Positions 21,234-32,794 of a stretch of 64,000 nucleotides of DNA are shown here, piece by piece. Made by a program: the position numbers and the translations under genes. This DNA comes from Oceanospirillales bacterium. GTDB taxonomy: Bacteria > Pseudomonadota > Gammaproteobacteria > Xanthomonadales > SZUA-36. Position 1 is the stretch's first letter. Each line of letters opens with the position of its first letter. Where the stretch lies: positions 1 to 64,000 of the forward strand of contig QIKV01000124.1 of the NCBI GenBank assembly GCA_003233115.1, written 5' to 3'. The notes beneath the pieces are model-generated. The model ran no database searches. It was not told the DNA's origin and saw only the letters and a program-made list of their open reading frames with translations.

Positions 21234-21488
21234 ATGCTGGTACTCGTTACATTACTTTTGGCGGCCTTGTTGGTTGCCACTGCTGTTATATGGTTGTTCC
21301 GAATTATAGTTAGCCGGAGAAATACGAATTACACATTAGGTGTGGCGCCCTCCCTGAGGTCGCAGTTGTATGCCCAGCAAGGTTATATCAAACTGGATTC
21401 CGGCTCAAAAAAGGCACTGCAGAAGCGTGCGCTGCCAGTAAAGCTACGCTCTGCCAGTGGCGAACTTAAAGCACCCTGGGGTTGGTGA
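21234..21488 (+). CDS. Small putative membrane protein (84 aa)
   Basis: gaggagataataaaATG with good SD; N-terminal TM LVTLLLAALLVATAVIWLFRIIV. Confidence 0.55.
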   Translation: MLVLVTLLLAALLVATAVIWLFRIIVSRRNTNYTLGVAPSLRSQLYAQQGYIKLDSGSKKALQKRALPVKLRSASGELKAPWGW

Positions 21489-24494: not shown

Positions 24495-25757
24495 ATGAAG
24501 CACCTTCGCCATCCGAATGAGATTAGCCGCGAGTCGCTCGTCAGCATCCTGGAAATCATGCACCGCCTGGCTGCGCCGGAGGCAATGCCGGAGCTTTTGA
24601 GGGAGGTTATCGAGGTTGGCAAGGTGGCCATCGTTGCAGAGACCGGCGTGTTGTGGTTGTTGGAAAGGAGTTCTCAGCAGCTTGTTATGGTGGTGCCGTC
24701 TGACACCTCTCCTGCGCGGGTGGAGCCCGGTGAATCCTGGGCCGGTAAGTGTGCCGTCGACCACGTTATCAGCAACATCCGTGATTGCCGGGAAGACGAA
24801 CTATTCCTTAAATACCCCCTGCATATTCCCGCAGGCGAAACCCGCTCACTGTTGAACGTACCGATTCTGGGTCAGGATGAGTCCCTGTTGGGTGTAATGC
24901 AATGGCTCGGGGCGGTGGTTGGGCAGTTCGATGAGCATGATGAATGGGTAGGGCCGGCACTGGCAGCACAAGCGGCGGTTGCGATACAGCACGCCTACAT
25001 GACCGATGAACTGCTCGCCAATGCGGTACTGAGCCAGGAAGTCGCTGTTGCACGTGAGATACAGATGAGTACCCTGCCGGATGCAATGCCCGAAATCCCT
25101 GGTTATGACCTGTATGGGCATTTTCAGCCGACGGAACAAACCGGTGGTGACTTATATGACCTCGCATTGTTAAATGGGCGCCTGTTCATGTTGCTGGGTG
25201 ATGCAACCGGCCATGGTTTTGGCCCCGCACTGTCAGCCACCCAAATGCAGGCCATGTTGCGGGTTTCATTCAGACTGGGTGCTGATCTTGATCATGCTTA
25301 CATGCACGTTAATAACCAACTGTCAGAAGATTTACCGGATGACCGCTTTATCACTGCATTTATGGGATTCCTGGATCCCGCTACACATCAGGTCAATTAC
25401 CATTCAGGCGGCCAGGGGCCGATACTGCACTTTCATGCGGCCCGTGAGAAATGTGACTGGTATAGCCCGACCAATTTCCCGCTTGGTATTATGGAAATCG
25501 ATGACCGGCAGGAATCCGCTGATTTAAGGCTTGAGCCGGGAGATATTCTGGCGCTGATATCTGATGGTGTTTACGAATACAACAACACGGGAGGAGAGGA
25601 GTTTGGTGAAGACCGGGTGGCCGGGGTTTTCAGGGCTCATCATCACTTGCCGATGTCCGCGTTGAGCCAGAAACTGATTCAGGCGGTCCAGGATTTTGGC
25701 GGGGGCGCACCGCAGGAAGATGACATCACCCTGGTGCTGATACGCCGCGAAGCATAA
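24495..25757 (+). CDS. GAF domain + PP2C/SpoIIE-type serine phosphatase (RsbU-like)
   Basis: GETRSLLNVPI GAF region; VAREIQMSTLPDAMP; TGGDLYDL; LLGDATGHGFGPAL; LALISDGVYEYNN. Confidence 0.92.
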   Translation: MKHLRHPNEISRESLVSILEIMHRLAAPEAMPELLREVIEVGKVAIVAETGVLWLLERSSQQLVMVVPSDTSPARVEPGESWAGKCAVDHVISNIRDCREDELFLKYPLHIPAGETRSLLNVPILGQDESLLGVMQWLGAVVGQFDEHDEWVGPALAAQAAVAIQHAYMTDELLANAVLSQEVAVAREIQMSTLPDAMPEIPGYDLYGHFQPTEQTGGDLYDLALLNGRLFMLLGDATGHGFGPALSATQMQAMLRVSFRLGADLDHAYMHVNNQLSEDLPDDRFITAFMGFLDPATHQVNYHSGGQGPILHFHAAREKCDWYSPTNFPLGIMEIDDRQESADLRLEPGDILALISDGVYEYNNTGGEEFGEDRVAGVFRAHHHLPMSALSQKLIQAVQDFGGGAPQEDDITLVLIRREA

Positions 25758-25778
25758 TCCGCAAGCGCTGGAGGAAAT

Positions 25779-26180
25779 ATGGAACAGAAATTCAAACGAA
25801 ATTTTGCTGAACTCAAGAGTATCGTCACGATGACTGAGGCGTTTTTCCGGCAGCAGGGCCTGCAGGCAGGATTGCGCAACGTGGTTGACCTTGCCACCGA
25901 AGAGTTGTTTGTCAATATGGTGACGTACAATACTGAATCTAATGAGGATATACTTATCCAAATGGTGCCGCATGAGCACGGTATCGAAGTCAGTCTGACA
26001 GACTACGATGTTGAGCGATTTGACCCGAGGAGCGCTGTCACCGTTGCTGTGGATATACCTCTGGATCAACGCACGCCAGGTGGGCTGGGTTTATATCTGG
26101 TACTGAAAATGGTCGATTCCATTCACTATGAGTACCGGAACAGAAAGAGCAGAATAACCTTTATCGTTGACAGGAAATAA
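25779..26180 (+). CDS. RsbW-type ATP-binding anti-sigma regulatory kinase
   Basis: VDLATEELFVNMVTYN (N-box like), TPGGLGLYLVLKMVDSIHYEY (G-box like). Confidence 0.9.
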   Translation: MEQKFKRNFAELKSIVTMTEAFFRQQGLQAGLRNVVDLATEELFVNMVTYNTESNEDILIQMVPHEHGIEVSLTDYDVERFDPRSAVTVAVDIPLDQRTPGGLGLYLVLKMVDSIHYEYRNRKSRITFIVDRK

Positions 26181-26183
26181 AGC

Positions 26184-26486
26184 ATGTTTGAAATTGAATT
26201 CTTCGATGGAGGTCACATTGCTGTGGCAGGGCGGCTGGATGCTGCACAGGCGGTGAAGGCACAGGCGCTTCTCGACCGGGCAGAGGGCCTGTGTGTACTG
26301 GACCTGGCCAGACTTGAATACATATCCAGTGCCGGGCTGGGCGTTTTACTCAAAACACACAAGCGTCTGATGGGTTCCGGCAACGGCATCAAGCTGATCA
26401 ATGTCAACCATCATATTCATGATATTTTCCGTTATTCCGGTTTCGACAAGTTATTTGAAATCGTGCCCGCAACCTCAGACGGTTGA
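26184..26486 (+). CDS. STAS-domain anti-sigma factor antagonist
   Basis: VLDLARLEYISSAGLGVLLKTHKRL contains the phosphorylatable-Ser STAS motif. Confidence 0.93.
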   Translation: MFEIEFFDGGHIAVAGRLDAAQAVKAQALLDRAEGLCVLDLARLEYISSAGLGVLLKTHKRLMGSGNGIKLINVNHHIHDIFRYSGFDKLFEIVPATSDG

Positions 26487-26558
26487 ATACGCTTATGCAG
26501 CGTACTGTAAAGAAAATTTTCGTATCTGCACCAACTTTTTCCGTCCCGGCCTGTAGTT

Positions 26559-27095
26559 ATGCATAAGGACAGGGATGCTGCCCTTGTAAACGACTGTCAA
26601 CGGGGTGACCGCGCGGCCATGGCCAAATTGGTCAGCCAGTACGAGCGGCCTGTTTTCAATGCGGCGTACCGGATACTGGGGAATACGGATGATGCAGCGG
26701 ATACTACACAAACCGTTTTTCTCAAGGTATTTGAACATATCGCTGATTATGACCCGAATTTCAGGTTTTTTAGCTGGGTCTACAGGATTGCAATCAATGA
26801 GTCTCTTAACCAGATTAAGAAACGCCACCACCAGGAGCCTTTGGCTGATAGCCAGGCTTCACCGTGGCGAAGCCCTGAAGAGCATATGGAATCAACAGCG
26901 CTATGCAACCGGGTCCAGGGTGCGCTGATGGAACTGAACGAGGATTACAGAACGGTGGTGGTGTTGAAACATATGTCAGGCTGCAGTTACCAGCAAATTG
27001 GCGAAATATTGCAACTACCGGAGAAAACGGTTAAATCCCGCCTGTATTCCGCCCGCCAGTTAATGAAGAAATCACTCAAAGCAACAGACCTTTGA
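26559..27095 (+). CDS. ECF-type sigma-70 family RNA polymerase sigma factor
   Basis: region 2: VFLKVFEHIADYDPNFRFFSWVYRIAINESLNQIKK; region 4: VLKHMSGCSYQQIGEILQLPEKTVKSRLYSARQLMK. Confidence 0.95.
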   Translation: MHKDRDAALVNDCQRGDRAAMAKLVSQYERPVFNAAYRILGNTDDAADTTQTVFLKVFEHIADYDPNFRFFSWVYRIAINESLNQIKKRHHQEPLADSQASPWRSPEEHMESTALCNRVQGALMELNEDYRTVVVLKHMSGCSYQQIGEILQLPEKTVKSRLYSARQLMKKSLKATDL

Positions 27096-27111
27096 CCGGG
27101 GACTGGCCACC

Positions 27112-27930
27112 ATGAATAAACATACTCCCGTTGACCCGTCCCGTGTTGAACAGCACGTGCTTGATCTGCTCAACTGCAGTATCGACGGAGCATTGAGTGC
27201 CGCCGGGCGGGCCGAGTTGGATGAACTCCTGGCTGGGTCCGCACAGGTGCGTGATTTGAAAGAAGAATTAGAGGTACTGGCGGGTATTCTGGACGGCCTG
27301 CCCGAGCAGGAGCCACCAGAGTATCTGCATCATGTGATTATCAGCCGGGCAGTGGCCGGCCAGGTGAGAGAACCCCCGGTCAGTGAAACCCGGGGGGAAA
27401 AGCCAGGACTTGCCATGAACCTGTTGTCCACCCCCTGGTTGCGTACCGGGCTTGCGGTAGCAGCAGGCCTGCTGCTGACGGTTGGCATTTACCAGACCGG
27501 TTCAGAAAATCTGTCACCTGAAGATACTTCCAGCATGGCCGGAACTGTTGTAAAAAATCCACGCGGTACGCTGCTTGACAGTACCCTGTTTGATGCCGAA
27601 GCGATGCGCGGAAAAGCGGAACTTCGTGAACAGGACGGTTTCCTGTCCCTCGATGTGCGCATCGAATCAGCAGGTTTGGCGGTTCTCAAGCTTGGTTTTC
27701 CAGAACAGGGCCTGGAGTTCGCCGGTACGAATGGACTGCAAAACCAGGCAGAAGATGTCACTGTGAAAAACGGTTTGGTCAGCGTCACCGGCAGCGGTCA
27801 GCAACATTATGCGCTGTTGTTTAAACGTACTGCTGAATTACCCCAGGACGGTCCCACGCCGCTGACTGTAGTTTTCTTTGCCGGCGATGTATTAGTTCAT
27901 GAGGCTGAATTGCGCGGGTCGCGGCGATGA
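27112..27930 (+). CDS. Putative single-pass membrane anti-sigma factor
   Basis: Directly downstream of ECF sigma; LLNCSIDGALSAAGRAELDELLAGSAQVRDLKEEL N-domain; one TM LRTGLAVAAGLLLTVGIYQT; no HxxxCxxC zinc motif. Confidence 0.7.
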   Translation: MNKHTPVDPSRVEQHVLDLLNCSIDGALSAAGRAELDELLAGSAQVRDLKEELEVLAGILDGLPEQEPPEYLHHVIISRAVAGQVREPPVSETRGEKPGLAMNLLSTPWLRTGLAVAAGLLLTVGIYQTGSENLSPEDTSSMAGTVVKNPRGTLLDSTLFDAEAMRGKAELREQDGFLSLDVRIESAGLAVLKLGFPEQGLEFAGTNGLQNQAEDVTVKNGLVSVTGSGQQHYALLFKRTAELPQDGPTPLTVVFFAGDVLVHEAELRGSRR

Positions 27931-28021
27931 TTGAGCGGATTCCGGGCGGGGCCCAGCACAATGAACCTCTGAGGGGGGGAAAGGCTGAAAGGCAATAATA
28001 AGGCCAAGAAGTCTGGAAATA

Positions 28022-28050
28022 CCGCCTGCCATCAGGCAGGCGGTTTTTTT
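28022..28050 (+). terminator. Rho-independent terminator of the sigma/anti-sigma operon
   Basis: ccgcctgcc-atca-ggcaggcgg-ttttttt. Confidence 0.92.
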
Positions 28051-28182
28051 GATGCGCCGGCCCGCAGAACACTGAAAACCACGCCCGGCAGTGAGCGGAT
28101 TTCCCTGAAGATATTGTGAAAGGACCATCAATTCGCGCAGAATACAGAACGAGCCACGTCACCCCACGGAATTCGCTGATCA

Positions 28183-29193
28183 ATGTTGACTGACTTACTA
28201 ACCAGGGCGCCTGTCGGATTGCTGCCGGTGTTAATCTTTCTTATCGTCCTGTTATATATGGATAGTTACAAGCTGGTCAGCCTGCATACCGTTTTGTGGG
28301 TCATACTGGCGGGTGCATTGTTGCCCATTGCCGGCTACTGGATAAATGGATATGCCATGACCGCACTGGGCTGGGACTTGCCGGCCTACTCCCGCTATGC
28401 AGCACCGGTTATTGAGGAGGGCCTGAAGGCTTCGGTCATGGTGTTCCTGTTCAGGACCAACCGTATAGGCTTTCTGGTCGATGCGGCAATTCTGGGTTTT
28501 GCTGTGGGTGCTGGCTTTGGCGTAGTTGAGAATTTTTATTACTTGTACATGGCATCCGACGCCCATATTGCGGTGTGGATTGTGCGTGGTTTCGGTACTG
28601 CCATCATGCATGGTGGGGCGATGGCGCTGTTCGGTATCATGGCGCAGGTATTGACCGAGCGCAGTATGAAAATCAACCCTTTGTTGTATGTCCCCGGTTT
28701 TATTGTTGCCGTCATTGTACATTCTGTGTTCAATCATTTTCCGGGTACGCCAATCCTGACAACAGTGGGCACATTGCTGCTGCTACCGCCCATTCTGCTG
28801 GTCGTTTTCCAAAAAAGTGCACGCTCCATGCACGCGTGGCTGGAACTGGATTTTGATGAGGATGCCTTGCTGCTGGAGCAGATTAATTCTGGTGAATTTG
28901 CCGGCTCAAAGATCGGCCGGTTTCTGGAGGACCTGAAGTTGAAATTCCCCGGGCCGGTGGTGGTGGATATGCTTTGCTACCTGCGTCTTTATACCGAACT
29001 GGCACTGCGGGCGAAGGGTGTATTGATGATGCGTGAAAATGGCCTGGATGCGCCAGTGGGCGAGCGCACCCGGGCCAAGTTTGAAGAAATGCACTATCTC
29101 GAGAGAAGCGTCGGTAAAACAGGTATCCTGGCGATCAGCCCATTTTTGCAAATGACACGCAAGGACCTATGGCAATTGTACGTTCTCGAGTAG
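28183..29193 (+). CDS. PrsW-family intramembrane metalloprotease with long C-terminal extension
   Basis: APVIEEGLKA (EExxK), GFAVGAGFGVVENFYYL, HGGAMALFG, VIVHSVFNHF; multiple TMs. Confidence 0.88.
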   Translation: MLTDLLTRAPVGLLPVLIFLIVLLYMDSYKLVSLHTVLWVILAGALLPIAGYWINGYAMTALGWDLPAYSRYAAPVIEEGLKASVMVFLFRTNRIGFLVDAAILGFAVGAGFGVVENFYYLYMASDAHIAVWIVRGFGTAIMHGGAMALFGIMAQVLTERSMKINPLLYVPGFIVAVIVHSVFNHFPGTPILTTVGTLLLLPPILLVVFQKSARSMHAWLELDFDEDALLLEQINSGEFAGSKIGRFLEDLKLKFPGPVVVDMLCYLRLYTELALRAKGVLMMRENGLDAPVGERTRAKFEEMHYLERSVGKTGILAISPFLQMTRKDLWQLYVLE

Positions 29194-29215
29194 GCTGGAG
29201 CTGCTCCCTCCTACA
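29193..29215. repeat. REP-like half-site
   Basis: ggctggagctgctccctcctaca. Confidence 0.5.
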
Positions 29216-32200
29216 ATGGGTTGACCTGTAGCAGAGTGATCCCGGCCGTATTGACGCTTGCGCGCAGTTCAGCAAGGTCAGTTGACATGAATGCATTGAC
29301 CTTTTCAGTGGCTTCGGACAGGGATTTCTGGGCAATTTCAAGGTAGGTTTCAGAGGCAGGAGAAGGCGCACCCTCACCTGATCCGGCATAAAATGCCGCT
29401 GTTCCCAGCTTGGAGTTGACCGTGTCTCCAGCGTAGGTAATACCCTTGGTCTTGGCCGGAATCCTGTACAGTTTCTCGAGTTCATCCAGGCCTTTTTTGA
29501 CTTCTCCGGCCTGCTTTTTCAGCGCTTGAAGGTCATCGGTTTTTGCCAGTTCCAGCCGCTTGTCGATCAGCTTGTTGATGGTGCTGACATCGTCACGTGC
29601 GGCAATGATCTGGCGCAAGGCGGTGTTGGCTGTGCTGCGCATTGCCAGTAAGGTCATGCGGGTATCAAAGTTTGCCTGCAAGTCTTCCAGCGAGTAAGGG
29701 CTGCGGGGGTCTTTAAGTATCTCCACGTCCGTGCTGGCAGTGGTGTCGCCGAGTGCAATGGTTATTTCATACTTGCCGGGCATGACCACCGGGCCGGCGG
29801 GCAGTCCGTCATCTGAGTCCTTGTGGTCCTCACTGGATACAGGCTTGATACCATCCCTTCGCATGGCCCATACCAGGCGGTTGATACCCTGCTCTACAGT
29901 GGTTTTATAAGACCGGATAACTGTACCTTCAGCATCCTTGACCGTGACCGACAGTTTGGGCGGCTTGGAATCCTTTGAGTCTTTCTCCGCAGGGCTCTTT
30001 TTCCCGGCAGCTTCTTTTCGGGAGGATTCGGCCGCTGCCTTGCGCAGGGCAATCTTGCGTGCCCTTTCAGCCTTTTTATCCGGGTTTGGCAGGTCATTGC
30101 CACTGGCTATGAAGGTCAGCATGACACCGTAGGGCTCATTGTCTGCCCGGAATTCACCGGAGCCGGTAAAACGGGTCGACGGTGTCTGGTTGGCCGTGTA
30201 TTGCTGGCCTGGTGAGACAGAAAGAATTTTCAACCGTGCTTTGAAATCTTTTGCTGACAGGTTTCGAAGGCCGCTGTAGTCATCTATGACGTAGGCTGCC
30301 CGGCCATGGGTTCCGAGCACCAGATCGTTCTCGCGCGTCTGAATGGCCATATCCATGACCGAGACCGTGGGTAACCCGGCTGTGAACTTGATCCAATTTT
30401 CCCCTGCGTCAGTGGAGATATACAAGCCGAACTCGGTACCGACGAATAACAGGTCCGGATCGACCGGGTCCTGCAGCACTGATAGTGCGTAACCTTTCAT
30501 GCTACTGGTGGAAATTCGTTTCCAACGGCTGCCGTAGCCTTCCACACGGTATACGTAGGGCTTCATATCGGAGCGCCGGTGATCATCAAATACGACAAAG
30601 GCCGTGCCGGCATCGTGCGGCGAGGGCGTTATCATCGGCACCCATGCGCCGGCGGAAACACCACGTGCTTTGCTGTCAATGCGGGTCCAGTTAGCGCCAC
30701 CATCGCGGGTAACGTGAACCCGCCCGTCATCGGAACCAACCCAGATCACGTTGCGATCCAGCTTGCTGGGCGCAATGGTTGTGATGGTCGTGTAGTTTTC
30801 CGCAGCCGTCACGTCCGATGTCAGGCCGCCGCTTTCCCTGTAGGTCTGCATTTTTTTGTCATTGGAAGTCAGGTCACCGCTGATGGTTTTCCACGACTGG
30901 CCCCGGTCATTTGAGCGGTGTACGAACTGACTGCCGTAGTACACGGTATTGGGGTCAAACGGGTCTATGGCGAGCGCTGCATTCCAGTTAAATCGCAACT
31001 CGGTATCGAGCGTGGGTGGATCAGGCATCACCAGCTTTTGTTCGCCGGTGTCGAGGTTCCAGCGGAACAAATTGCCACCCTGGTACATGGCGTAGCCACT
31101 GCGGGAGTTATCCGGATCGGGCACGGTATCGAAGCCATCGCCAAAACCGACTTCCTGCCAGTGCAGATTGCGGATACCGGCATTTTCCCAGACTTCAGCA
31201 GGCCCTCTCCAGGAACCGTTGTCCTGCAGGCCGCCGTATACGTGATAGGGCAAGTCATTATCAACGGCGATATGGTAAAACTGGGCCAGCGGCAGGTTGC
31301 GTACGAAACGGAAGGTCTCACCCCGGTCACGGGAGATGGCGAGTCCGCCGTCGTTGCCGAATATCAGGTGTTTTGAGTCGTTTGGGCTGATCCAGAAAGC
31401 GTGGTTATCAATATGAATGGTGTTACCCGCTGCACAGCAGTTGATCACCGGGTTGTAGGCAAAGGTTTTACCGCCATCAATGGATACCCGGACGCGGGTG
31501 CCGATGTTATAGACAACGTCCGCGTTTTGCGGGTCTGCGGCGATTTCAGTGTAATAGAACGGGCGGTCGGCAACGTTGTACTCCTCGTTGACCTTGCGCC
31601 AACTGTCACCGCCATCATCTGATCGGAGCAGGGCGCTTTTCTTGGCTTCAACCAGCGCGTAAACCCGTTTTGGATTGGCGGGCGACAGTGCAAATGCCAT
31701 GCGCCCCAATTCGCCTGCCGGCAGACCGTCTTCTTCAGTTTTGCGCTGCCAGCTTTTTCCGCCGTCCTGGGTAATATACAAACCGGACCCCTCACCGCCG
31801 GATTTGAAGTAGTACGGCCAGCGCCGGAATTGCCACATACCGGCAAACAGTTTGTCCGGATTTACCGTGTCGATTTTGATATCGGTGGCACCGGTCGAAT
31901 CGTTGATATACAAAATCCGCTCCCAGCTATTGCCGCCATCCGTGGTTTTGTAGACGCCGCGTTCTTCATTTGGCCCCCACAGGGTACCCATCGCGGCCAC
32001 ATAGGCAATGTCCGGGTTATTGGGGTGCAAAGCGATGCGGTTGATGCGTTCGCTGTTGGCAAGCCCCATCAGCTTCCAGCTTTTGCCGCCGTCGGTCGAT
32101 TTGAAAATTCCGCCGCCGATCGATGTGGAATTACGCACATTACCTTCACCCGTACCGACCCAGATGATGTCGGGGTTGGATTGGTTAATCGCAATCGATC

Positions 32201-32510
32201 CGATAGACGCGACTGGCTGGTCATCAAATACAGACTCCCAGGTCAGACCACCGTTGTCGGAGATCCACACGCCACCGGTCGCTGCACCGACCACAATATG
32301 GTTAGGGTCAGAGGCTACGACATCAATGGCTGCGACGCGTCCACTGATGGCTGCAGGACCGATTGAACGGGCTTTGAGCCCCTCCATCAAGCTGGCATCC
32401 AGCACTGCCCAGGTATTGAATGAGGCCAGGGTGAGTACTAAAGCGGTTACCCTGTACAGGGATTTCAGCCAGTGATTGTCGCGGCTGTTGGCAGGAATAT
32501 CTTGTTGCAT
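29211..32510 (-). CDS. Large secreted VPS10/sortilin- or BNR-repeat-like beta-propeller protein
   Basis: Many sDGGxsW repeats (SDNGGLTWESVF, STDGGKSWKLM, TTDGGNSWERI, SDDGGDSWRKV, STDAGENWIKF); signal peptide; ATG at 32510. Confidence 0.88.
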   Translation of the reverse strand: MQQDIPANSRDNHWLKSLYRVTALVLTLASFNTWAVLDASLMEGLKARSIGPAAISGRVAAIDVVASDPNHIVVGAATGGVWISDNGGLTWESVFDDQPVASIGSIAINQSNPDIIWVGTGEGNVRNSTSIGGGIFKSTDGGKSWKLMGLANSERINRIALHPNNPDIAYVAAMGTLWGPNEERGVYKTTDGGNSWERILYINDSTGATDIKIDTVNPDKLFAGMWQFRRWPYYFKSGGEGSGLYITQDGGKSWQRKTEEDGLPAGELGRMAFALSPANPKRVYALVEAKKSALLRSDDGGDSWRKVNEEYNVADRPFYYTEIAADPQNADVVYNIGTRVRVSIDGGKTFAYNPVINCCAAGNTIHIDNHAFWISPNDSKHLIFGNDGGLAISRDRGETFRFVRNLPLAQFYHIAVDNDLPYHVYGGLQDNGSWRGPAEVWENAGIRNLHWQEVGFGDGFDTVPDPDNSRSGYAMYQGGNLFRWNLDTGEQKLVMPDPPTLDTELRFNWNAALAIDPFDPNTVYYGSQFVHRSNDRGQSWKTISGDLTSNDKKMQTYRESGGLTSDVTAAENYTTITTIAPSKLDRNVIWVGSDDGRVHVTRDGGANWTRIDSKARGVSAGAWVPMITPSPHDAGTAFVVFDDHRRSDMKPYVYRVEGYGSRWKRISTSSMKGYALSVLQDPVDPDLLFVGTEFGLYISTDAGENWIKFTAGLPTVSVMDMAIQTRENDLVLGTHGRAAYVIDDYSGLRNLSAKDFKARLKILSVSPGQQYTANQTPSTRFTGSGEFRADNEPYGVMLTFIASGNDLPNPDKKAERARKIALRKAAAESSRKEAAGKKSPAEKDSKDSKPPKLSVTVKDAEGTVIRSYKTTVEQGINRLVWAMRRDGIKPVSSEDHKDSDDGLPAGPVVMPGKYEITIALGDTTASTDVEILKDPRSPYSLEDLQANFDTRMTLLAMRSTANTALRQIIAARDDVSTINKLIDKRLELAKTDDLQALKKQAGEVKKGLDELEKLYRIPAKTKGITYAGDTVNSKLGTAAFYAGSGEGAPSPASETYLEIAQKSLSEATEKVNAFMSTDLAELRASVNTAGITLLQVNPL

Positions 32511-32539
32511 TTTTTTTGTCCGGTAAGCATTCGGCTGCA

Positions 32540-32794
32540 CTAGTGTAGTGTCCTGTATTAAGTGGCTATTAAGAGCCCCACAAAAGATTCAAGTCAAGGC
32601 GCAGCCTGCAATTAATGGCTGCCCCCTTAAGCAGGATTGAGTCTTTTGTGGGGCTCCCTGCGGGCGAAACGAGAAGGTATCATCTGCTGCGTTGCGCCTC
32701 TTGTAAAGGACCAGCCATTCCCTGCGAGACGCGCCTTACAGCTAATACCTTCTCGTTTCGCTTAATCGTCACTTAATACAGGACACTACACTAG
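32540..32794. mobile_element. 255-bp MITE-like non-autonomous element with 24-bp perfect TIRs and two internal hairpins
   Basis: ctagtgtagtgtcctgtattaagt (32540-32563) vs acttaatacaggacactacactag (32771-32794); internal IRs 32573-32592/32637-32656 and 32664-32680/32745-32761; no ORF encoding a transposase. Confidence 0.85.

Follow-up and report, generated by a model that had tools for sequence, protein, structure and literature searches.

A SigW/RsiW/PrsW-like locus of a Gram-negative bacterium linked to a SpoIIE/RsbW/STAS module: candidate two-input control of one ECF sigma factor

Regulated proteolysis of an anti-sigma factor and phosphorylation-driven partner switching are modes of sigma-factor release that have so far been studied separately. 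Genes for both lie together in the 64,000-nucleotide stretch of DNA analyzed here (the window), which raises the question of whether the two modes control one and the same ECF sigma factor. The reading that we favor, with a probability of about 0.6, is a SigW/RsiW/PrsW-type regulated-proteolysis circuit of Gram-negatives with a SpoIIE/RsbW/STAS partner-switching layer bound on. The joined, conserved locus would then be a naturally occurring example of one ECF under two inputs, and would place the SigW/RsiW/PrsW circuit in Gram-negatives. A literature search, for which many subscription journals were outside reach, returned no paper on a PrsW/SpoIIE/STAS locus; within the same limits, the few papers containing both "PrsW" and "partner switching" all concerned Bacillus and Clostridioides.

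Gene order and conservation of the locus

The locus comprises six intact open reading frames on the same strand (Table 1). The first five are separated by 21, 3, 72 and 16 nt, so the co-directional genes described in the initial annotation, coordinates included, were recovered exactly. Five of the six proposed families were matched in Pfam; the exception is the anti-sigma factor, which had no match in the Pfam search and was recognized through a profile of its own family (see below). In a search of the host's own genome, SpoIIE, the stand-alone RsbW (the only stand-alone HATPase_c_2 protein) and PrsW were each found as single copies, all at this locus.

Table 1. Features of the locus, in positions of the window
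Feature	Coordinates	Strand	Basis
GAF-SpoIIE (PP2C-type) phosphatase, 420 aa	24495..25757	+	Pfam GAF_2 + SpoIIE (143 bits)
RsbW-type ATP-binding protein, predicted serine kinase, 133 aa	25779..26180	+	Pfam HATPase_c_2 (59 bits)
STAS antagonist, 100 aa	26184..26486	+	Pfam STAS_2/STAS (46/38 bits); TIGR00377 above cut-off
Predicted ECF promoter CCAACTTTTTCCGTCCCGGCCTGTA	26531..26555	+	Just 5' of the ECF gene; sole exact match genome-wide
ECF sigma factor, 178 aa	26559..27095	+	Pfam Sigma70_r2 + r4_2 (56/53 bits)
Single-TM anti-sigma factor, 272 aa	27112..27930	+	RsiW profile match; AlphaFold; alignment
Scar 1: tail and terminator of deleted REP gene	27947..28050	+	G027 alignment
Scar 2: end of deleted OMP gene and OMP-prsW spacer	28087..28180	+	G030, G027 alignments
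PrsW-family glutamic intramembrane protease, 336 aa, with conserved C-terminal domain	28183..29193	+	Pfam

In relatives, the order is SpoIIE-RsbW-STAS-ECF-antisigma-REP-OMP-PrsW, where REP is a membrane-anchored nonapeptide-repeat protein and OMP a protein of ~990 aa with HExxH, propeller and barrel parts. The same arrangement, reading frames included, is found in over 20 genomes and extends beyond the family. The six genes thus keep their order in relatives, with REP and OMP normally interposed before prsW. PrsW is the final gene in every contig that spans the locus, so its proximity to the operon is no peculiarity of the window. Among 39 genomes of the family, PrsW is present in 21 of the 22 that carry the anti-sigma gene versus none of the 17 that do not (Fisher p=3.5e-10, with the 39 genomes taken as independent and kinship ignored). 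One genome (G025) keeps the decarboxylase neighbor and has prsW reduced to its last ~30 codons, a pattern that fits loss of the whole locus in one piece.

The host is a marine-sediment bacterium, and the relatives with the locus are mostly Lysobacterales sediment MAGs.

The SpoIIE/RsbW/STAS trio lies directly 5' of the ECF gene in all spanning Lysobacterales loci, and likewise in a locus of another family (L262). A distant locus (L263) reads ECF-antisigma-REP'-OMP-PrsW and lacks the trio; the partner switch is therefore a separable layer, and the ECF can work without it. Such natural reduced versions (without REP and OMP, or without the partner switch) allow a direct test of every part. Judged by gene order, the ECF, membrane anti-sigma factor, PrsW and phosphorylation switch are inherited as one unit in the host and its relatives.

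A SigW-like sigma factor, its anti-sigma factor and PrsW

The best PDB match of the ECF is SigW (5wuq_A, E 8.6e-28). SigW is also its best NCBIfam match, at 131.5 bits and under the equivalog cut-off of 209, so that by this standard the ECF is a SigW relative and not an orthologue. The family profile of the anti-sigma factor matches RsiW (PDB 5wuq_C) over residues 4-78 (E 4.5e-6). Its AlphaFold (AF2) model has four N-terminal helices, one transmembrane segment (108-130) and a periplasmic beta domain, and a juxtamembrane GT (144-145) is invariant in the alignment. The CHCC zinc motif of RsiW (ZAS family; ligands taken from PMC5358783) is absent, the ligand positions being neither Cys nor His in the aligned proteins. 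The anti-sigma gene is the fastest-evolving gene of the locus, and a Foldseek search with the model returned cohesin/Ig-like beta domains with low TM-scores, of no functional use. By these matches, the two proteins are homologues of Bacillus SigW and RsiW; the membrane protein probably holds back the ECF.

The protease scores 57.5 bits against the Pfam PrsW-protease model (cut-off 23.5) and 26 bits against the NCBIfam equivalog, under its cut-off of 225. The catalytic residues E78/E79, H143, H180 and H185 are invariant in 18 homologues, and a pN/pS of 0.10-0.12 indicates strong purifying selection on prsW where measured. A homologue of RseP, a site-2 protease, is encoded in the same genome. 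In B. subtilis, PrsW cuts RsiW at site 1 (PMC3498285, PMC5358783); by analogy, the PrsW of this locus probably cuts the anti-sigma factor. This regulated-proteolysis half of the proposal is strengthened by the homology of the ECF and anti-sigma factor to SigW and RsiW.

The locus therefore resembles the B. subtilis SigW-RsiW-PrsW-RasP system in several respects: an ECF and an anti-sigma factor whose nearest solved relatives are SigW and RsiW, a PrsW with the E-E and H motifs, an RseP homologue in the genome, a single-TM anti-sigma factor with a four-helix sigma-binding domain, and an AAC-type -35 element. It differs in its Gram-negative host, in having prsW within the same locus, in an anti-sigma factor that lacks zinc ligands and carries a large beta-rich periplasmic domain, in the attached trio, REP and OMP, and in having rpoS among the predicted targets.

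The partner-switch trio

A phosphatase, a HATPase_c_2 kinase and a STAS protein are encoded together, with catalytic and phospho-acceptor residues intact. The SpoIIE metal-site residues (D219/D222, GDATGHG, SDG, DD409-410) are invariant in 14 orthologues, as is the STAS phospho-acceptor site SSAG (S48/S49) in its alignment. RsbW orthologues conserve the EELF.NM N-box and the GGLGL G2 box; their G1 box is atypical, mostly DxDVERFD, without the usual glycine, and phmmer found no PDB match for RsbW. The fixed linkage, the intact active-site residues and the fact that SpoIIE and the stand-alone RsbW are the only ones in the genome support the partner-switch half of the proposal.

As in SigB-type RsbU/RsbW/RsbV systems, a SpoIIE phosphatase, an RsbW-like protein and a STAS protein with a conserved phospho-acceptor Ser share an operon with a sigma factor. 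Unlike in those systems, the G1 box is unusual, and the linked sigma factor is a group 4 ECF with its own membrane anti-sigma factor, not of the SigB/SigF type. Bordetella BtrS/BtrU-BtrW-BtrV is a similar set: genes for a SpoIIE phosphatase, a serine kinase and a STAS protein accompany that of an ECF, which also has an anti-sigma factor, and secretion requires each of the three Btr switch proteins (PMC7498569). BtrA is a secreted anti-sigma factor, and PrsW is not mentioned in the descriptions consulted, whereas here the anti-sigma factor has one transmembrane segment, PrsW is present, and the named locus genes include none for a secretion apparatus.

A predicted promoter shared by the ECF gene, REP and rpoS

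The motif CCAACTTT-N14-GTA lies before ECF and REP. About five genomes, that of the window among them, also have it before rpoS, and it is very rare elsewhere in the scanned sequence. The regulon scans consisted of pattern searches and the sequences of selected loci. Exact sites number 56 in the 22 genomes with the locus (17 for a reversed-pattern control) and 5 in the 17 genomes without it (control, 7). When 1.25 million positions were scanned with a matrix, 45 matches reached at least 15 bits; only one did not lie before ECF, REP or rpoS, and the matches include loci outside the training set. The AAC and T-run of the motif agree with the -35 elements of SigW and SigE (PMC6713349). At the ECF gene, the -10 element lies almost against the start codon. 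Within the window, the motif was not seen ahead of either prsW or spoIIE.

In the window genome, the rpoS site lies between nlpD and rpoS. Of the 18 rpoS upstream regions that could be read in locus-bearing genomes, 4 have the site, and in one further genome (G023) it was found by position; we therefore rejected it as a feature of all locus-bearing genomes. Through this predicted promoter, the ECF appears to feed into RpoS, the general stress regulator.

Proposed control of the ECF and the target of the switch

At rest, the membrane anti-sigma factor would hold the ECF. An envelope signal would lead PrsW to make the first cut in the periplasmic part of the anti-sigma factor, after which the RseP homologue and cytoplasmic proteases would release the ECF. 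On the other side, the GAF domain would read a cytoplasmic signal, the SpoIIE phosphatase would dephosphorylate STAS, and dephosphorylated STAS would capture RsbW; otherwise RsbW would restrain the ECF, or the ECF/anti-sigma complex, as a second brake. Free ECF would recognize CCAACTTT-N14-GTA, re-activate its own gene, drive REP in relatives and activate rpoS in the window genome and some relatives; through rpoS, the output would be an envelope/general stress response. In this scheme, the genes, their homology, linkage and co-loss, the scars, and the motif with its distribution are observed; binding, cleavage, phosphorylation, promoter use and the signals are given here as we infer them.

The initial annotation had proposed that two release logics may converge on one ECF; REP, OMP, the scars, the promoter and the link to rpoS are additions to it. 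The linkage, the SigW/RsiW homology and the intact active sites speak for it, and at the level of genomes the convergence is well supported; action of both controls on the ECF protein itself is what we infer. Instead, the target of the RsbW-type kinase could be the anti-sigma factor or RpoS. A reading in which proteolysis alone controls the ECF and the co-transcribed trio acts elsewhere, most likely on RpoS, is unlikely, though it draws on several observations. Gammaproteobacterial partner switches on RpoS are on record (PMC6482189; a Shewanella paper cited in PMC8256260), L263 holds the ECF core without the trio, and rpoS is a predicted ECF target, so that the kinase could act one step further down. 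However, the trio is fixed directly 5' of the ECF in all spanning loci but L263, across families, while almost every genome has rpoS, also where the locus is missing; the trio thus tracks the ECF and not rpoS.

Further stress systems invite comparison with the favored two-input control. The Shewanella and Pseudomonas (HsbR-HsbA) switches likewise tie Gammaproteobacterial partner switching to the general stress sigma factor, but they act on RpoS after its synthesis, whereas here a predicted ECF promoter precedes rpoS. In alphaproteobacterial EcfG/NepR/PhyR, an ECF with a general stress output is also under a partner switch; that switch uses a sigma-mimicking response regulator and a soluble anti-sigma factor in place of SpoIIE/RsbW/STAS and a membrane anti-sigma factor, and PrsW is not mentioned in the accounts consulted.

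Deletion of REP and OMP in the window, and the substrate of PrsW

In the window, prsW lies ~250 nt beyond the operon, behind a terminator, and may be transcribed separately. The REP and OMP genes that normally separate the anti-sigma gene from prsW have left remnants here, by which the 252-nt gap is identified as a double deletion scar of both. Scar 1 aligns with the REP tail and terminator of G027 (local alignment score 58, shuffles <=21). Scar 2 holds ATTTCCCTGAAGATATTGTGA, which encodes ISLKIL-stop, the end of the OMP gene, and aligns with G030 (score 36, shuffles <=20) and G027 (30.5, shuffles <=23.5). The strong terminator described earlier at 28022-28050 is present (28021-28050, a 10-bp stem followed by a T-run) but belongs to the deleted REP gene; we rejected it as the system's own boundary.

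REP and OMP are undescribed surface proteins and likely the original output of the locus; a Foldseek search with the REP model found nothing. PrsW might accordingly process membrane-anchored REP as part of a REP/OMP surface system, and not the anti-sigma factor, its link to the ECF then reflecting no more than that the ECF drives REP. PrsW adjoins OMP in distant genomes, REP carries an invariant GT beside its membrane anchor, and for other bacteria a role of PrsW domains in toxin release has been suggested (PMC3482391). We nevertheless consider this rather improbable: eight genomes without REP and OMP still keep prsW beside the anti-sigma gene, under strong purifying selection where measured, no genome of the family has a close PrsW without the anti-sigma gene, and the classical PrsW substrate is RsiW.

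A more elaborate scheme, which we hold to be doubtful, adds a feedback to the two independent releases (PrsW for envelope signals, partner switching for cytoplasmic ones): REP of the ancestral locus, driven by the sigma factor and with the same juxtamembrane GT, would compete with the anti-sigma factor for PrsW as a product-sensing gauge, and in the window genome a natural loss of REP and OMP would have left the switch alone, now directed at rpoS. A general juxtamembrane match between REP and the anti-sigma factor is statistically weak, and we retain it as a hypothesis. With an HMM of the REP juxtamembrane segment, anti-sigma ORFs came out marginally ahead of the rest (p=0.02) and no single ORF was significant, and hhalign paired the invariant GTs in register (E 0.0014, 17.8% probability, inflated by transmembrane composition).

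Finally, the terminator and ~250 nt that part PrsW from the operon could suggest a loose cluster of unrelated regulators, but we rejected such chance clustering as very improbable, given an order kept across genera and families, a G025 remnant that fits block loss, and a promoter common to ECF, REP and rpoS.

A conserved locus with two predicted sigma-control systems

The initial annotation described six genes on the forward strand, encoding a GAF-SpoIIE phosphatase, an RsbW-type kinase, a STAS antagonist, an ECF sigma factor, an anti-sigma-like protein (the 27112 product) and a PrsW protease, and an ORF check agreed exactly on the ORFs, their strands and the four intergenic gaps. The family assignments were likewise borne out by Pfam, which recognised GAF_2 with SpoIIE, HATPase_c_2, STAS, regions 2 and 4 of an ECF sigma, and PrsW, but no family for the 27112 product. 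PrsW is present as a single copy in the window genome, which also encodes an RseP-type site-2 protease.

Across 39 family genomes, 22 have the anti-sigma gene. A PrsW orthologue (at least 60% identical, counting a partial copy in genome G003) was found in 21 of these 22 and in none of the other 17 (Fisher p=3.5e-10, ignoring the kinship of the genomes, though the pattern is mixed within each of the genera g1, g2, g6 and g10). The sole genome with the anti-sigma gene and without PrsW, G022, is an assembly that is 65% complete. In G025, the neighbouring decarboxylase gene adjoins only the final ~30 codons of prsW, a remnant that fits loss of the locus as one block. Relatives bearing names are mostly Lysobacterales/Gammaproteobacteria MAGs.

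All six genes, PrsW included, recur in relatives, most often in the order SpoIIE-RsbW-STAS-ECF-antisigma-REP-OMP-PrsW, with two more genes, REP and OMP, between the anti-sigma gene and prsW. In eight genomes, including that of the window, REP and OMP are absent, the others are kept and PrsW lies directly 3' of the anti-sigma gene. At loci L060 and L068 the ECF match was probably removed by the overlap filter, since a promoter match sits at that position. L262, from another family, has all eight genes and both promoters, and L263 has ECF-antisigma-REP'-OMP-PrsW and the promoter without the partner switch (SpoIIE, RsbW and STAS). The proteolytic core is thus separable, and the phospho-switch is a conserved layer added to it. 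A second PrsW clade, ~50% identical, occurs in other gene contexts (L074, L076, L077, L081), and G042 carries an additional STAS-PrsW-REP-like trio separate from its full locus.

Each half, proteolysis and partner switching, is already known. Bordetella encodes ECF factors together with SpoIIE, RsbW and STAS, as here, and partner switches act on RpoS in Shewanella and Pseudomonas. Our literature search found no description of a conserved locus that unites PrsW with an ECF/RsiW-type pair and a partner switch.

The sigma/anti-sigma pair

Among all PDB sequences, SigW was the top match of the ECF factor (5wuq_A, E 8.6e-28), and RsiW was the first match of an anti-sigma profile built from 18 orthologues (5wuq_C, residues 4-78, E 4.5e-6). 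By homology, then, the pair is SigW/RsiW-like. For the anti-sigma, AlphaFold predicts four confident N-terminal helices and one TM helix (108-130), followed by a disordered linker and a periplasmic domain rich in beta structure. The zinc ligands of RsiW are not conserved, so it does not belong to the zinc anti-sigmas. In B. subtilis, PrsW makes the site 1 cut in RsiW and RasP cuts next (PMC3498285, PMC5358783, PMC8844934); homology and linkage support a corresponding predicted proteolytic half here.

REP, OMP and the gap before prsW

REP and OMP are two undescribed proteins associated with the locus. REP (~350-460 aa) is membrane-anchored and consists nearly entirely of nonapeptide repeats (SDAFRSAMA, DANFRSALN), modelled with moderate confidence as a superhelix with one short helix per repeat; it has no convincing Pfam or NCBIfam family, and its model has no PDB fold match. 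Its repeats number in the dozens, and a near-invariant GTxxPAER motif lies at its N-terminus. REP' of L263 is a short predicted lipoprotein in which a GTIM motif is all that remains of REP. A GT motif ~11-15 residues outside the membrane is common to REP and the anti-sigma, which suggests, on weak sequence statistics, a shared recognition site. OMP (~990 aa) is secreted, with an HExxH motif and weak matches to a PD40 propeller and an Omp85 barrel. Its C-terminus is a near-constant SLKIL, and PrsW adjoins OMP in distant Gammaproteobacteria too.

Two stretches of the 252-nt gap region align with genes of relatives: one with the REP 3' end and terminator of the closest relative (score 58; shuffles <=21), the other with the last OMP codons (ISLKIL-stop) and the OMP-prsW spacer (score 36; shuffles <=20). 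These alignments make two deletions the best explanation of the gap. The strong terminator noted initially is present as a hairpin, but the alignment assigns it to REP. Despite the deletions PrsW is under strong constraint (pN/pS 0.10-0.12).

Coordinates of features in the window and in relatives
Feature	Location	Remark
PWGW protein	window 21234-21488	
Predicted ECF promoter, CCAACTTTT-N13-GTA (exact pattern)	window 26531-26555	sole occurrence in window genome
Predicted -10 element and ECF start codon	window 26553-26561	also in orthologues
REP-aligned stretch	window 27947-28049	
Terminator hairpin	window 28021-28050	
OMP-aligned stretch	window 28048-28180	
Sortilin/BNR-repeat gene	window 29211-32540	
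Further matrix match	window 31747-31782 (+)	antisense within sortilin/BNR-repeat gene
REP	L051:6778-7824, L063:9787-11169, L059:9976-11271	not in window
OMP	L051:3663-6650 and orthologues	not in window
STAS-PrsW-REP-like trio	L151:1-1898	G042

Predicted promoter and targets

Almost all loci have the motif CCAACTTT-N14-GTA upstream of the ECF gene, and many have it upstream of REP; its AAC followed by a T-run agrees with the SigW and SigE -35 elements (PMC6713349). Exact sites number 56 in genomes with the locus (17 for a reversed-pattern control) and 5 in genomes without it (control 7). Training a matrix on 30 ECF/REP sites and running it over 1.25 million positions of retrieved sequence yielded 45 matches of >=15 bits, all but one upstream of ECF, REP or rpoS, untrained loci included. 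The rpoS site of the window genome (20.1 bits) lies between nlpD and rpoS. It is also present in G030, G016 and G021. Of the 10 rpoS upstream regions that could be read in genomes lacking the locus, none has it; in G023 a site lies at the end of a contig, flanked by similar sequence. One further match, the second-best (19.6 bits), lies antisense within the sortilin/BNR-repeat gene of the window and is probably due to chance.

In five relatives (L200, L201, L203, L205, L206), a conserved ECF-type promoter precedes a small ORF together with an MsbA-related ABC transporter. Several small single-TM proteins ending in PWGW lie just 3' of such a promoter in relatives (L191, L199), unlike the PWGW protein of the window. 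At most a few nt separate the predicted -10 element from the ECF start codon. Transcripts initiated at the gene's own promoter would therefore either lack a leader or begin within the gene, and this position might favour anti-sigma over ECF synthesis.

The partner-switch layer

Residues at the metal site of SpoIIE, the serine of the STAS SSAG motif and the RsbW N- and G2-boxes are conserved; the RsbW G1 box is without the usual glycine. The only SpoIIE domain and the only stand-alone HATPase_c_2 protein of the window genome are both in the locus, so the genome holds no rival partner-switch set. Linkage and uniqueness support the predicted function of the phospho half. In L063, L066 and L070 (genus g6 and G002), the N-terminal GAF half of the phosphatase is exchanged or strongly diverged and the rest of the locus is retained, the pattern that a change of input signal would predict.
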